Shown: positions 58,065 to 61,458 of the stretch, in pieces | Layout: the number at the start of each line of letters is the position of its first letter | Numbering within the stretch: position 1 is the stretch's first letter | DNA from: Halocatena salina | GTDB lineage: Archaea; Halobacteriota; Halobacteria; Halobacteriales; Haloarculaceae | Assembly (NCBI RefSeq): GCF_023115355.1 | Contig: NZ_CP096019.1 | Span: forward strand, 496,001-560,000 | Length of the DNA: 64,000 nt | Direction of reading: 5' to 3' | Notes under the pieces: generated by a model | The model's database searches: none | What the model was told of the DNA's origin: nothing | What the model saw: only the letters and a program-made list of their open reading frames with translations | Made by a program: the position numbers and the translations under genes

Positions 58065-58626
58065 CTCTCAAATCTTTCGTCCGGTATTGAACGACAATAC
58101 AACGACCGGCCGCTCGTGGGGATTACGAGCAACCACTCGAAAAGTATTCAGGCATTGTCGATCGATGACCGGCGAAACGACGGAGGTACGCCGCCAACGA
58201 GGGAACACAGGGCTAATTTGCCATGGTCCGGCGACCGTTCCTAGGGGGGATGTGTATAAAGGAATTCGTTAGGATCTAGTGGCGATTTGATCACTAGTAA
58301 CAGTTATCGGTCGATCACCTGATTCCTGACAATGAATTTTTATACCTGTATAGTAGCTCTGTGAGAGATGATAATGAAATTTTGATTAGTTTGGTGTTAG
58401 ATAATTAACTAGAAAACCGTGGGATGTAGGAGAGTCAATACATTAGTCCTGACGAGAGATAGAAGAGCTGTATAGTAATGTTCTATGTCCATCTGAGTAG
58501 TAACGTTTATAATATATGTGTTTGAATATGGTTGTACTGGGAAACTCCACGATCGATTTGCCGACTTCCGGTGTGGATCAGTTCGGCAAAAAATCGTCAA
58601 CGTGGGATTCGTCCCAGATGATACCC
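58065..58626. other. AT-rich intergenic region with long leader of the first acidic peptide
   Basis: About 560 bp with no supported gene of its own. GTATAAAGG near 58254 is a TATA-like element of unclear target. TTTATAATATATG near 58507 is the best promoter for the peptide gene, giving a leader of about 85-90 nt. CTAGTG (58276) recurs inverted as CACTAG (58292). The octamer TCCACGAT is at 58546. Confidence 0.5.
58603..58616 (+). promoter_or_regulatory. Hairpin TGGGA-TTCG-TCCCA in the leader of the first acidic peptide
   Basis: A perfect 5-bp stem with a TTCG loop ends 10 bp before ATG 58627. As RNA it would carry a UUCG-type loop. It sits where ribosome access would be affected. A second, unrelated hairpin is at the matching place before the paralogous peptide gene. 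Confidence 0.45.
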
Positions 58627-58848
58627 ATGAAACGAGCTATCCACGTTGCGTTGGCCGCGTTCATGCTGTTGGGCATGATCGCGGGGGCCGGCGCGACACC
58701 CGCTATGGCAGAGAGCACAGACGTCACCTACGACGATGACAACCACGGCGTCGACAACGACGGCGTCGATGTCGATGATTCCTCCAACGTTATCATCGAC
58801 GATAGCGAAGACAACGACTTCCTAGACCTCGGCTTGGATATCCTGTAA
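58627..58848 (+). CDS. Secreted Asp-rich 73-residue peptide, copy 1
   Basis: 73 residues from ATG 58627. The Sec signal (MKRAIHVALAAFMLLGMIAG to TPAMA) is nearly identical to that of the second copy at 60927. The mature part, about 45 residues, is dominated by Asp with Asn, Val and Gly (VTYDDDNHGVDNDGVDVDD) and ends LDLGLDIL. No Cys, lipobox or anchor is present. The conserved leader with a fast-changing acidic mature part suggests a secreted peptide family; Ca2+ binding, surface association or signalling are guesses. Confidence 0.65.
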   Translation: MKRAIHVALAAFMLLGMIAGAGATPAMAESTDVTYDDDNHGVDNDGVDVDDSSNVIIDDSEDNDFLDLGLDIL

Positions 58849-59019
58849 GGTGTAGGGAGCCTCGTTCCATCTCGTTGACGCTCGTGATTACCTCCGTTTC
58901 GTGCCGGTGAGAGCTACGTCTGCGCTGGTCGTTTGTTACCGACCCACTCAACAGGTTCTCGGGCAGTGTATTATATGCTGTGATTCTCTAACACCGGTGA
59001 CTGGCCAGTGTCGGAGCTA

Positions 59020-60081
59020 TCAGTACTCTTTGGTCTCGACGAGTCGTCGCGCAATACGGTGGGCACCACGTGCAGCGGCAGTTGTCGGTTCTTCGGGAGC
59101 GATCACCACGATATTCCGTTGGAGTTCCGTGCTGAGTCGGTCCTCGAACGCTTTACCCAAGCCAGGGACGACAGCCATATCACCGGTAAGGACGATCGGC
59201 TTCTCCAAGGTCCGTTTGTAGATTTTGATGGAACGACTGGCAAGGCGGGGGAGAAACCCGTTTGCGATTTCGTCGACGGCTTTCTCAACGTATCGATCGA
59301 TTGCGTCGCTCACCCCGTGTTCGACAGTGGATTCGTGGATCGGTTTCCCGGTGCTGGTGGCACTGTCAGTAAACGGTCGAAAATCGTCGTGATCGGTGCG
59401 TCCTTCTTTGTATTCTCGTGCCGTGGTCCGATCGATGTGAACCCGACCTTGAGTTCTTTCCTCGACGTTGTTGATGATCCATTTATCGACCTCAAAGCCC
59501 CTGACCGATCCCGTCGAAAATCGTGCTAGCTGCTCTCCACGACGATACACGCATCCTTCAAGATTCGTCGATCCTGCATTGATCGCAATAAAGATCCGAT
59601 CGAGCGCATCCAATCCGCTTTCAAACACCGGAATCGAGCCGCACAATGCCATCGGATAGCCACAGAGAAGACGCTCACCGATGCTCTCTTCGACGATGGT
59701 GTCGAGCATCGTCGCTCGGTTGTCGAACGAGGGGATCGCATACACCACGACGCTGTTAGACGGAAGCTCGTTCGCCCGAGCAAACGCATCAAGAAACGAA
59801 TGCGTTACAGTGGCCCGCTCGTCGGTCAGCTCCGATTGGAGCATGAACTGCGCTCGGTCAGGGTACTCGGTCGCCGCTCGGTCGCCGTAAACAGTTCGGC
59901 GCTTGCCCGTCAGCACGTCCTGATACGTCGCCGAGCACGTCAAAGCCACCTCCGTTTGAACGGTGTCGTCCACCGACCGAGCAGCGACCGTTCGAACGCC
60001 ACCGACAATGAGACCGACCGGGGTTGGGACATCCCCTCCGTCTTCACTCGTCCCACTCGCGGACGCATTCTCTTCGAGCAT
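59020..60081 (-). CDS. Actin-like ATPase (MreB/ParM/salactin-like)
   Basis: 353 residues. The actin-superfamily layout is visible with substitutions: PTPVGLIVGGVRTVAARS takes the phosphate-1 place, IFIAINAGSTNLEGCVY the phosphate-2 loop (usually DxGGGT), and KPIVLTGDMAVVPGLGKAF the adenosine motif. ALCGSIPVFESGLDAL and KWIINNVEERTQG fill the connecting regions. Such proteins polymerise with ATP for cell shape or DNA segregation. Salactin of Halobacterium is the closest concept I can name, without a search. It lies between the two acidic-peptide genes, on the opposite strand. Confidence 0.65.
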   Translation of the reverse strand: MLEENASASGTSEDGGDVPTPVGLIVGGVRTVAARSVDDTVQTEVALTCSATYQDVLTGKRRTVYGDRAATEYPDRAQFMLQSELTDERATVTHSFLDAFARANELPSNSVVVYAIPSFDNRATMLDTIVEESIGERLLCGYPMALCGSIPVFESGLDALDRIFIAINAGSTNLEGCVYRRGEQLARFSTGSVRGFEVDKWIINNVEERTQGRVHIDRTTAREYKEGRTDHDDFRPFTDSATSTGKPIHESTVEHGVSDAIDRYVEKAVDEIANGFLPRLASRSIKIYKRTLEKPIVLTGDMAVVPGLGKAFEDRLSTELQRNIVVIAPEEPTTAAARGAHRIARRLVETKEY

Positions 60082-60159
60082 ATCGATCCATTGGTTCTGG
60101 TGGGAGGTATTTCGACCTTTTGTAAATTATGTGTATGTTCTCACATTCCGACGCACACG

Positions 60160-60582
60160 TCAATCGATTTCAATAAGTAAATAAAGTGATCCAAGTAGCA
60201 TTGCGATATCACCGCGCCACGCGTGAAGGAATCCCCAAACTCCGTAGCGTTCGGCGTCTTGAACCGGAAATACCCAGATGCCGTGACCAACGAGAATCGG
60301 AATCTTCGTTGTGACAATCGCACCGAAAGCGATCAACAACAGAAACACGGCAGCCAATCGCGTTGCAAGCCCAACGAGTACAGCACCGCCCGCAATAACC
60401 TCAATCACTCCCACAACGGTAGCTGTGGTTTGGGGGACGGGAAAGCCCATCGTGGCAAAACGCGTTGTGCCAAGTATCCCTGGGAACAGCAGTTTTTGTA
60501 TTCCTTCTGTAATGAAAACGCCACCAACTAACAGCCTGATGAGGATCAGAGATGCCGGTCCCTGAGTACCTAACTTCGCCAT
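60160..60582 (-). CDS. DoxX-family membrane protein
   Basis: 140 residues with four hydrophobic helices. The DoxX start ILIRLLVGGVFITEGIQKLL and the helix VVGVIEVIAGGAVLVGLATR are characteristic. The family is tied to thiosulfate/quinone and oxidative-stress functions in some organisms but is mostly uncharacterised. The stop lies 78 bp from the actin-like gene start and both are on the minus strand, so cotranscription is possible. Confidence 0.88.
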   Translation of the reverse strand: MAKLGTQGPASLILIRLLVGGVFITEGIQKLLFPGILGTTRFATMGFPVPQTTATVVGVIEVIAGGAVLVGLATRLAAVFLLLIAFGAIVTTKIPILVGHGIWVFPVQDAERYGVWGFLHAWRGDIAMLLGSLYLLIEID

Positions 60583-60926
60583 GCATCACGTCCTCTCGTC
60601 TCCAGATTAAACGTTTTCCATACCATTCACTATTGTTCTCGTTTAATGTAATTGTTGATATGTTACGAATGCACTTCATTATGGATAAGTGATACACCAA
60701 TAACAGTGGAAATCGGACTATCGACGCCGTGCAGTCAAGTATGAGATGACAAAATATATTCACATCAGGTAGTAACGTATCATGATAAGTTAAATTGAAT
60801 CGATTGTTTCATTACTATCAGTCGAAGAAATATTTATTGCAGATGTGCTCGAATGAATATCTGCTGGGCGAGCAGTCCACGATTCCCTCATTGGAGGGAT
60901 CATAGTGGATCCCAGTCCATATACCC
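60583..60926. other. AT-rich intergenic region with the leader of the second acidic peptide
   Basis: About 340 bp with no gene. AAATATTTATTG near 60828 is a probable TATA box for the peptide gene, giving a leader of ~70 nt. GCAGAT (60840) recurs inverted as ATCTGC (60858). The octamer TCCACGAT is at 60876, and two overlapping hairpins follow. Confidence 0.5.
60884..60913 (+). promoter_or_regulatory. Two mutually exclusive hairpins in the leader of the second acidic peptide
   Basis: Hairpin A pairs TCCCTC (60884-60889) with GAGGGA (60894-60899) around ATTG. Hairpin B pairs GGGATC (60896-60901) with GATCCC (60908-60913) around ATAGTG. They share bases 60896-60899, so only one can form. ATG 60927 is 13 bp further, which would suit attenuation-like translational control. 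Confidence 0.45.
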
Positions 60927-61148
60927 ATGAAACGATCTATCCGCGTTGCGTTGGCCGCATTCATGCTGTTGGGCATGATTGCGGGAGCCGGCGCGACACC
61001 AGTTGCAGCGCACGGTTGCTCAGGAGACGATATCAGTGACGATGATGATGTCGATGTCGATAATAAAGGCGGTAACGTCGTCGTTGATTACGAGGACCGT
61101 AGCGACGACGACGGCTTCGACGATAAGGATTTCTTCGACATCGTATAG
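60927..61148 (+). CDS. Secreted Asp-rich 73-residue peptide, copy 2
   Basis: 73 residues, exactly the length of copy 1. The Sec signal (MKRSIRVALAAFMLLGMIAG to TPVAA) shares all but a few residues with copy 1 and the DNA is correspondingly close. The mature part differs: HGCSGDDISDDDDVDVDNKG, then VVVDYEDRS and DGFDDKDFFDIV. It has one Cys near the mature N terminus, which copy 1 lacks; the Cys is not in a lipobox. A T-run terminator follows. Function is unknown. Confidence 0.65.
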   Translation: MKRSIRVALAAFMLLGMIAGAGATPVAAHGCSGDDISDDDDVDVDNKGGNVVVDYEDRSDDDGFDDKDFFDIV

Positions 61149-61458
61149 GGTGAACCGACCAAACGATTTTTTTGATGTGCTGTCTCAAACAGATAGCAAG
61201 CAATACCGATAGCAGAAATCGTATCACAACACGCTTCATAATTGTTAATAATTCATTACTTATGGATATGTTTCGATGCGTTTTTAGGGTTCGAGTGGGA
61301 CCACCAAAGTAGACTGTCCACGATTGAATAGACGAGACGGCATACGATACTTAGTACAACAGAGGGGCAGTCTGCGATCTGTGTTTGCTCTCCACGAGGC
61401 AGCTCATTCGAACAAACGTCCTGCCTCGGTTTTTTCTCAGTGAGTCAGAAGAGAGGGG
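61149..61458. other. Intergenic region after the second acidic peptide
   Basis: About 310 bp. It holds the T7 terminator at 61167 and a third copy of the octamer TCCACGAT at 61317. Nothing else is recognised; no gene is seen on either strand. Confidence 0.5.
61167..61173 (+). terminator. T7 terminator after acidic peptide copy 2
   Basis: Seven T on the coding strand 18 bp after the stop codon, in the sequence CGATTTTTTTGATG. This is the clearest oligo-T terminator in the window. Confidence 0.5.

Follow-up and report, generated by a model that had tools for sequence, protein, structure and literature searches.

The 64,000-nucleotide window analyzed here (Halocatena salina, assembly GCF_023115355.1, contig NZ_CP096019.1, positions 496,001 to 560,000 of the forward strand) carries two genes, hereafter copy 1 and copy 2, that each encode a predicted secreted peptide of 73 residues. 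An initial annotation had singled out the pair as paralogs with a conserved signal peptide and a variable mature part, and its description of the two genes proved accurate. Both open reading frames (ORFs) run from ATG to stop at the positions given in Table 1; the products are identical at residues 7-25 (VALAAFMLLGMIAGAGATP), 69 of the first 75 nucleotides match between the copies, and the stretch ATACCCATGAAACGA precedes the ATG in both. Copy 2 has one Cys and copy 1 none, and an actin homologue and a doxX gene, both recognized by Pfam, lie between the copies on the minus strand. A search of the same genome further located a third close paralog (C1:2032095-2032313, minus strand) that has the same mature type as copy 1, to which it is 79% identical, three members of another type, and more distant relatives. 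The third paralog, the three other-type members and the 5'-hairpin described below had gone unnoticed earlier.

A profile built from the leader only (25 leaders, 29 positions) was searched against seven genomes of the Halocatena/Actinarchaeum group, labeled G000 to G006, where G000 is the genome of the window, G001 Actinarchaeum halophilum YIM 93972, G003 strain YIM A00013, G004 Halocatena pleomorpha SPP-AMP-1 and G005 strain YIM A00010. It identified 52 genes, with members in all seven genomes: 50 ORFs at E<=5.1e-7 and two at about 1e-3, the next match being at 0.196. The two weaker matches are one long type IV gene found in both G002 and G006, which the type IV profile recovers at 7.4e-26 and 9.9e-26. 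The G002 and G006 assemblies have identical chromosome coordinates for the hits they have in common, and G006, which contains additional contigs and 9% contamination, appears to be a near-duplicate of G002 or a mixed assembly. Eight G006 hits repeating G002 coordinates were therefore left out, giving 44 distinct genes, which we sorted by peptide into type I (12), II (2), III (16), IV (9), H (3) and V (2). Among 15 other genomes of the same taxonomic family no comparable match was found; 14 of them returned something at E<=10, and the best matches (0.0022 and 0.0025) are partial and lie within longer ORFs. The leader profile thus separates members from background by orders of magnitude, and the family is more than a chance resemblance. 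The leader is not confined to the window, and the proposed family with a conserved leader and differing cargo exists and is larger than the pair on which it was based.

The 25 aligned leaders, judged by eye, have a basic start, a hydrophobic core and a small-x-small end, as expected of signal peptidase I-type cleavage, and together define a conserved general secretory (Sec)-type leader, about 28 residues long and with A-x-A at its end. Substrates of the twin-arginine translocation (Tat) pathway carry a twin Arg, lipoproteins a lipobox Cys and type IV pilins a hydrophobic stretch after the cleavage site; none of these features is common to the leaders, and all three classes were rejected. Behind the leader stand at least six types of cargo, variously Asp-rich, Asn-rich (type IV), built from a repeated NVLG unit (type III), His/Asp-rich or Cys/Asp-rich. 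The Asp-rich character ascribed to the mature parts applies to types I and II and not to types III, IV, H and V, which differ. Type I contains stretches of DxDNDGxDxDD, the Cys-rich type V proteins have 14 and 17 Cys, and types I, II and H end in short, similar C-terminal tails (D-L-x-L-D-x-L, LIDIL). Type III occurs in one-unit and two-unit forms, the unit being doubled in L048, L064, L049 and L052 (130-137 residues). In most types the mature peptide is strongly negative, and K and R are few or absent in the majority of type I and type III mature parts.

Queries with single types gave scattered matches over a wider set of genomes: in 32 of 116 with a type I protein (E<=0.1), and in 24 and 18 of 195 with the type III and type IV profiles, respectively (E<=0.01). 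The best of these outside the genus (E 2.7e-4 in a 315-residue frame; 2.8e-4 in a 71-residue frame of G137, covering 34 of 74 positions; 7.8e-5 in a 1133-residue frame) are taken as chance or low complexity. When the type I profile was run against the genome_contigs collection, all ten loci recovered came from four strains, H. pleomorpha SPP-AMP-1, A. halophilum YIM 93972, YIM A00010 and YIM A00013, which are hyphae-forming (PMC10067837). In YIM 93972, family ORFs lie on CP071306.1 at about 143136-143381, 145326-145709, 301104-301496, 301845-302069 and 1833414-1833638 on the plus strand and 2338409-2338630 on the minus strand, and on chromosome 2 at about 447118-447357 (plus strand). In the collections searched, the family is therefore restricted to the genus. 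No family member matched Pfam or NCBIfam over cut-off, and no relative turned up when viral sequences were scanned with the type III profile; the type III repeat has a weak match to phrog_37341 in PHROGs (E 2e-4), whose function is unknown.

Many members also share a fixed layout upstream of the ATG, consisting of a TATA-like hexamer, CTGG(G) 31-33 nucleotides later, and CCAG 13-23 nucleotides before the ATG. With transcript starts inferred from the TATA spacing, the 5'-untranslated region (5'-UTR) is predicted to form a hairpin that extends from the transcript start to about 6-16 nucleotides before the ATG. CCAG occurs at -26..-4 in 31 of 44 family genes and in 19 of 165 other ORFs. At least five base pairs are possible between a 9-nucleotide window at offset 29 and positions -28..-6 in 20 of the 25 family genes with a hexamer; the same pairing was found in 13 genes at offset 26 and 10 at offset 32, both overlapping 29, in 0-3 at offsets 5-23 and in 1-7 at offsets 35-59. 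Just five control genes have a TATA hexamer, which makes them unusable for this offset test. The search pattern TTATA-N25..28-CTGGG-N40..70-CCCAG gave 11 matches in the seven genus genomes (two pairs of which are duplicated G002/G006 hits), every one directly before a family gene, and no hit in the controls. The same pattern matched nine times in nine of 237 other genomes; in three genomes of another genus (L174, L175 and L177; g5) it falls on conserved sequence.

Folding was limited to the 25 of 44 UTRs in which CTGG or CTGC stands as an arm where expected; the other 19 were excluded. The 25 form long hairpins with a mean z of -2.57 (range -4.66 to +0.44) compared to -0.26 in 44 control upstream regions (P 4e-8), a comparison that favors low values because the 25 were picked for the arm and the controls were not. 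The outer stem, P1, has a pairing probability of 0.77-1.00 in 20 of the 23 UTRs with CCAG and fails in three; both V-type UTRs are able to pair TCTGC/GCAGA instead. A covariance model of six type I UTRs scored those six strongly and gave only weak matches elsewhere; its best other match in the genus (G002, E 0.009) overlaps a 323-residue ORF and was for that reason treated as chance. Rfam 15 found nothing over the gathering score in window positions 58400-61300, the best match being a sub-threshold narK (24 of 43.2 bits, E 0.11) that overlaps the coding region.

The CTGGG and CCCAG arms could instead be a DNA operator, two half-sites for a regulator, and P1 is indeed near-invariant across 15 mixed UTRs, for which RNAalifold returned P1 alone and without two-sided changes. 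The case for covariation therefore rests on three other comparisons. In a six-row alignment of type I UTRs, whose structure was derived from one of its own rows, 94% of cells pair, as against 25-46% when the rows are slid; one pair of the nested stem, P2, shows four pair types, and two-sided change is seen at two pairs only. The V and H types retain the pairing with other letters (TCTGC/GCAGA and GCTGGTTG/CAGCCAGC). Finally, ten close pairs of UTRs contain 11 two-sided changes and no broken pair out of 194; since alifold chose the structure, the absence of broken pairs is uninformative, whereas the two-sided changes are informative. Against a DNA operator stand the covarying P2, the alternative letters of the V and H types, the 11 two-sided changes and the low folding energies, and we consider it rather improbable.

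Table 1 Features of the locus in the window (positions are those of the window).
Feature	Position	Strand	Remarks
Lrp/AsnC-type regulator, 170 residues	57552..58064	-	Syntenic neighbor
TATA-like box of copy 1 (TTTATAA)	58506..58512	+	31 nucleotides before CTGG
Predicted 5'-UTR hairpin, copy 1	58537..58617	+	P1 CTGGGA (58537-58542)/TCCCAG (58612-58617), nested P2 TCCACG/CGTGGG; P1 pairs with probability 1.00; z -2.42 against shuffles
Copy 1, type I peptide, 73 residues	58627..58848	+	Leader residues 1-28 (58627-58710), mature part 58711-58845
Divergent salactin paralog, 353 residues	59020..60081	-	Pfam Salactin PF25229, E 3.2e-149; neighbor, no mechanistic link claimed
DoxX family protein, 140 residues	60160..60582	-	PF07681, E 3.4e-14; syntenic neighbor
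TATA-like box of copy 2 (TATTTATT)	60831..60838	+	
Predicted 5'-UTR hairpin, copy 2	60863..60916	+	P1 GCTGGG/CCCAGT, pairing with probability 0.77; z -2.63 against shuffles
Copy 2, type II peptide, 73 residues	60927..61148	+	Leader as in copy 1, cargo different

G000, G004, G005, G003 and G001 all have the gene order lrp - type I - (salactin) - doxX - second peptide - QOR. The position of the second peptide is occupied by type II in G000 and G005 and, in G001 and G003, by the Cys-rich type V; in H. pleomorpha a decayed remnant of copy 2 lies between doxX and the adjacent gene (L038 1727-1845), its leader part gone. Between types II and V the promoter (shuffle z 4.6-7.2) and the leader (13.9) are similar and the mature parts are not (0.7). 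Species thus carry different cargo in this one slot beside doxX, behind a homologous promoter and leader. In G002, QOR and doxX stand farther apart (about 8 kb), with other genes and four type IV genes in the space between them. The salactin/doxX setting noted for the pair is accordingly syntenic, but it belongs to one locus of the family only, where one genome lacks salactin. The flanks of a second type I gene are likewise conserved across these five genomes; by eye, we read them as trp genes and a rhomboid-like gene. All five type I B copies have one Cys at a fixed position, and none of the five A copies does. The leader of the G005 B copy (L039 3931-4152) has one nonsynonymous difference from its own A copy and 10-11 from the other B copies; gene conversion is possible in this copy, which retains the B-type Cys.

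Selection was compared by region using the ratio of nonsynonymous to synonymous substitution (dN/dS). Among syntenic type I orthologs, the mature part gave values of about 0-0.27 where defined; leaders ranged over 0-0.56, apart from the G004/G005 B copies, whose value of 1.35 is the only one above 1. In the type V pair the ratio is 0.26 for the mature part and 2.05 for the leader, where synonymous change is nearly zero, and the type III pairs resemble type I with the single exception of G000c/G004c. Most ortholog pairs are therefore under purifying selection in leader and mature part alike, and the variability attributed to the mature parts holds between types and not between orthologs; hypervariability within a lineage is not what we find. 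Conopeptides and bacteriocin precursors are secreted peptide families with a conserved leader and variable cargo, and the present family is like them in having a common leader ahead of differing mature parts. It differs in that comparison of orthologs shows purifying selection on most of its mature parts, and no modification gene was recognized among the few neighbors scanned. By plain NG86, leader pS (the proportion of synonymous differences) was lower than mature pS, but Asp codons bias this estimate, and a codon-identity test against neighboring genes was used in its place. At identical residues, leader codons were conserved in 59 of 70 cases (49.8 expected from neighbors; P 0.008), and in a second and third set in 100 of 130 (83.3; P 0.0016) and 155 of 174 (140.7; P 0.0019). 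Mature codons were conserved as expected (81/100, 181/266 and 320/378). Overlapping loci were pooled for two genome pairs in this test, so that some control genes were counted double. The result points to a constraint on the leader, of modest strength, at the level of nucleotides.

The clade that carries these genes is reported to have Streptomyces-like growth with hyphae and spores (PMC10067837), and no other archaeal group is known to grow in this way. Computation yields the family, its genus restriction in the collections searched, its synteny, purifying selection on most pairs, the hairpin and a change of cargo at one slot; on these results we tentatively prefer, at somewhat less than even confidence, an interpretation as a lineage-specific family of small exported proteins of morphogenetic haloarchaea, coordinated by the hairpin and acting on the surface or within the matrix of hyphae and spores. 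Through an effect on mRNA stability or translation, the hairpin at the 5'-end would bring about joint expression of the members; the leader would route the product through Sec and be cleaved during export; and the mature peptides would work extracellularly, most likely as parts of the surface or matrix of hyphae and spores, in a chaplin-like manner without chaplin homology. A more specific version is possible, if doubtful: that an RNA-controlled, clade-specific secretion cassette, with a fixed promoter layout, hairpin and leader and a replaceable cargo, supplies surface peptides to hyphae and spores as an independent counterpart of the chaplin/rodlin coat.

Several observations weigh against the surface or matrix role. 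The AlphaFold model of copy 1 consists of the leader helix only (mean pLDDT, the predicted local distance difference test, 53), with a mature part that has no fold, so that no fold supports any function; a structure search was dropped as the model is too poor. The hairpin is absent from most type III genes and from operon-internal type IV genes. In the G000c/G004c type III pair, which may not be orthologs, the proportion of nonsynonymous differences (pN) in the mature part exceeds that of synonymous ones (pN 0.31, pS 0.20). The richness in Asp could be plain salt adaptation. Moreover, since the clade is one lineage, the co-occurrence of the family with hyphae counts as a single event.

The strongest rival, in our view unlikely, is that the peptides are extracellular oligopeptide signals: exported precursors would be cut and the pieces re-imported by a BldK-like permease, triggering aerial hyphae. 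YIM 93972 upregulates a peptide ABC (ATP-binding cassette) importer in its aerial hyphae, and with this importer a Streptomyces bldK mutant regains hyphae (PMC10067837); the short, similar C-terminal tails seen in types I, II and H would suit such a role. Conservation, however, spans the whole mature part and not merely a short end, one receptor is hard to reconcile with such unlike cargo types, and no linked protease or receptor gene was found. With a lower probability still, the peptides may bind extracellular Ca2+ or Mg2+ or interact with minerals, at germination or on the S-layer. The DxDNDGxDxDD stretches of type I point in this direction, as do the suggestion that Asp-rich proteins gained by the clade bind Ca2+ and the link of Ca2+ to germination (PMC10067837); the Asn-rich type IV and the NVLG repeats of type III would be left unexplained, and no known Ca2+ fold was matched. 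We think it quite improbable that the family comprises halocin-like antagonism peptides or decoys whose diversified cargo is aimed at competitors. The leader-cargo layout, the turnover of cargo, the decayed H. pleomorpha copy and the Cys-rich type V would fit, but no known family matched over cut-off, neither immunity genes nor a dedicated transporter were recognized among the few neighbors scanned, orthologs are mostly under purifying selection and most types are strongly negative. Least probable by far are ordinary Sec signal peptides made alike by shared constraint without forming a family, since, although every leader has the usual n-h-c layout and small-x-small end, a sharp gap divides the family from other ORFs of the same genomes, leader codons are conserved beyond what neighbors predict, and hairpin and promoter layout are common to the members.

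The surface or matrix interpretation bears on the make-up of hyphal and spore surfaces beyond S-layer proteins, and the family offers a short list of clade-confined, predicted exported proteins; for many of them a transcript start is predicted and an RNA element can be tested. A structured 5'-UTR shared across a gene family would be unusual in haloarchaea, where most transcripts are leaderless: in Haloferax volcanii this applies to 72% of coding transcripts, and structured leaders were considered atypical (PMC4983044). Translational control involving 5'-UTR stem-loops has been described in haloarchaea for two single genes, where the stem-loops act together with 3'-UTRs (PMC2636863); here, by contrast, one hairpin layout is common to many members of a family.

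Homology to chaplins was considered and rejected, as PF03777 (ChpA-C) exceeded its cut-off in none of the seven genus genomes and the family proteins gave no hit. Weak sub-threshold matches to the chaplin domain (E 0.07-0.15) fall in a 177-178-residue frame at G000:C1:70364-70501 and in G001, G003, G004 and G005. Short and long chaplins carry single and double domain units, to which the one-unit and two-unit forms of type III can be compared. Like the chaplins and rodlins of Streptomyces (PMC3079736, PMC5314377), the family consists of short secreted proteins, several to a genome, in an organism that forms hyphae and spores; it is distinguished from them by being acidic or Asn-rich, not hydrophobic, and by the lack of homology.

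The family had been called undescribed, and no description of it was found among the papers listed by the literature searches (Halocatena, Actino-/Actinarchaeum, salactin and haloarchaeal small secreted peptides; most subscription papers lay outside this search). That claim is qualified by one sentence of Tang et al. 2023 (PMC10067837), which states that several secreted proteins gained by the clade carry Asp-rich repeats and could bind Ca2+. These resemble the present family in clade, secretion, Asp-richness and gain, and may or may not be the same genes; a leader family and a 5'-UTR hairpin are not described in the sections covered, nor does the main text, as far as covered, mention a signal peptide, chaplin or salactin.

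The salactin gene between the copies scores 497 bits against the PF25229 cut-off of 27.1 and is the lowest scoring of the three salactins of the genome. One MreB-like family, which may or may not be this one, is reported to be expanded in the clade (PMC10067837). Syntenic counterparts are 73% identical in G004 and 36-39% in G001 and G003, and the gene is missing from its place in G005; on account of this low identity and absence, it looks fast-evolving.

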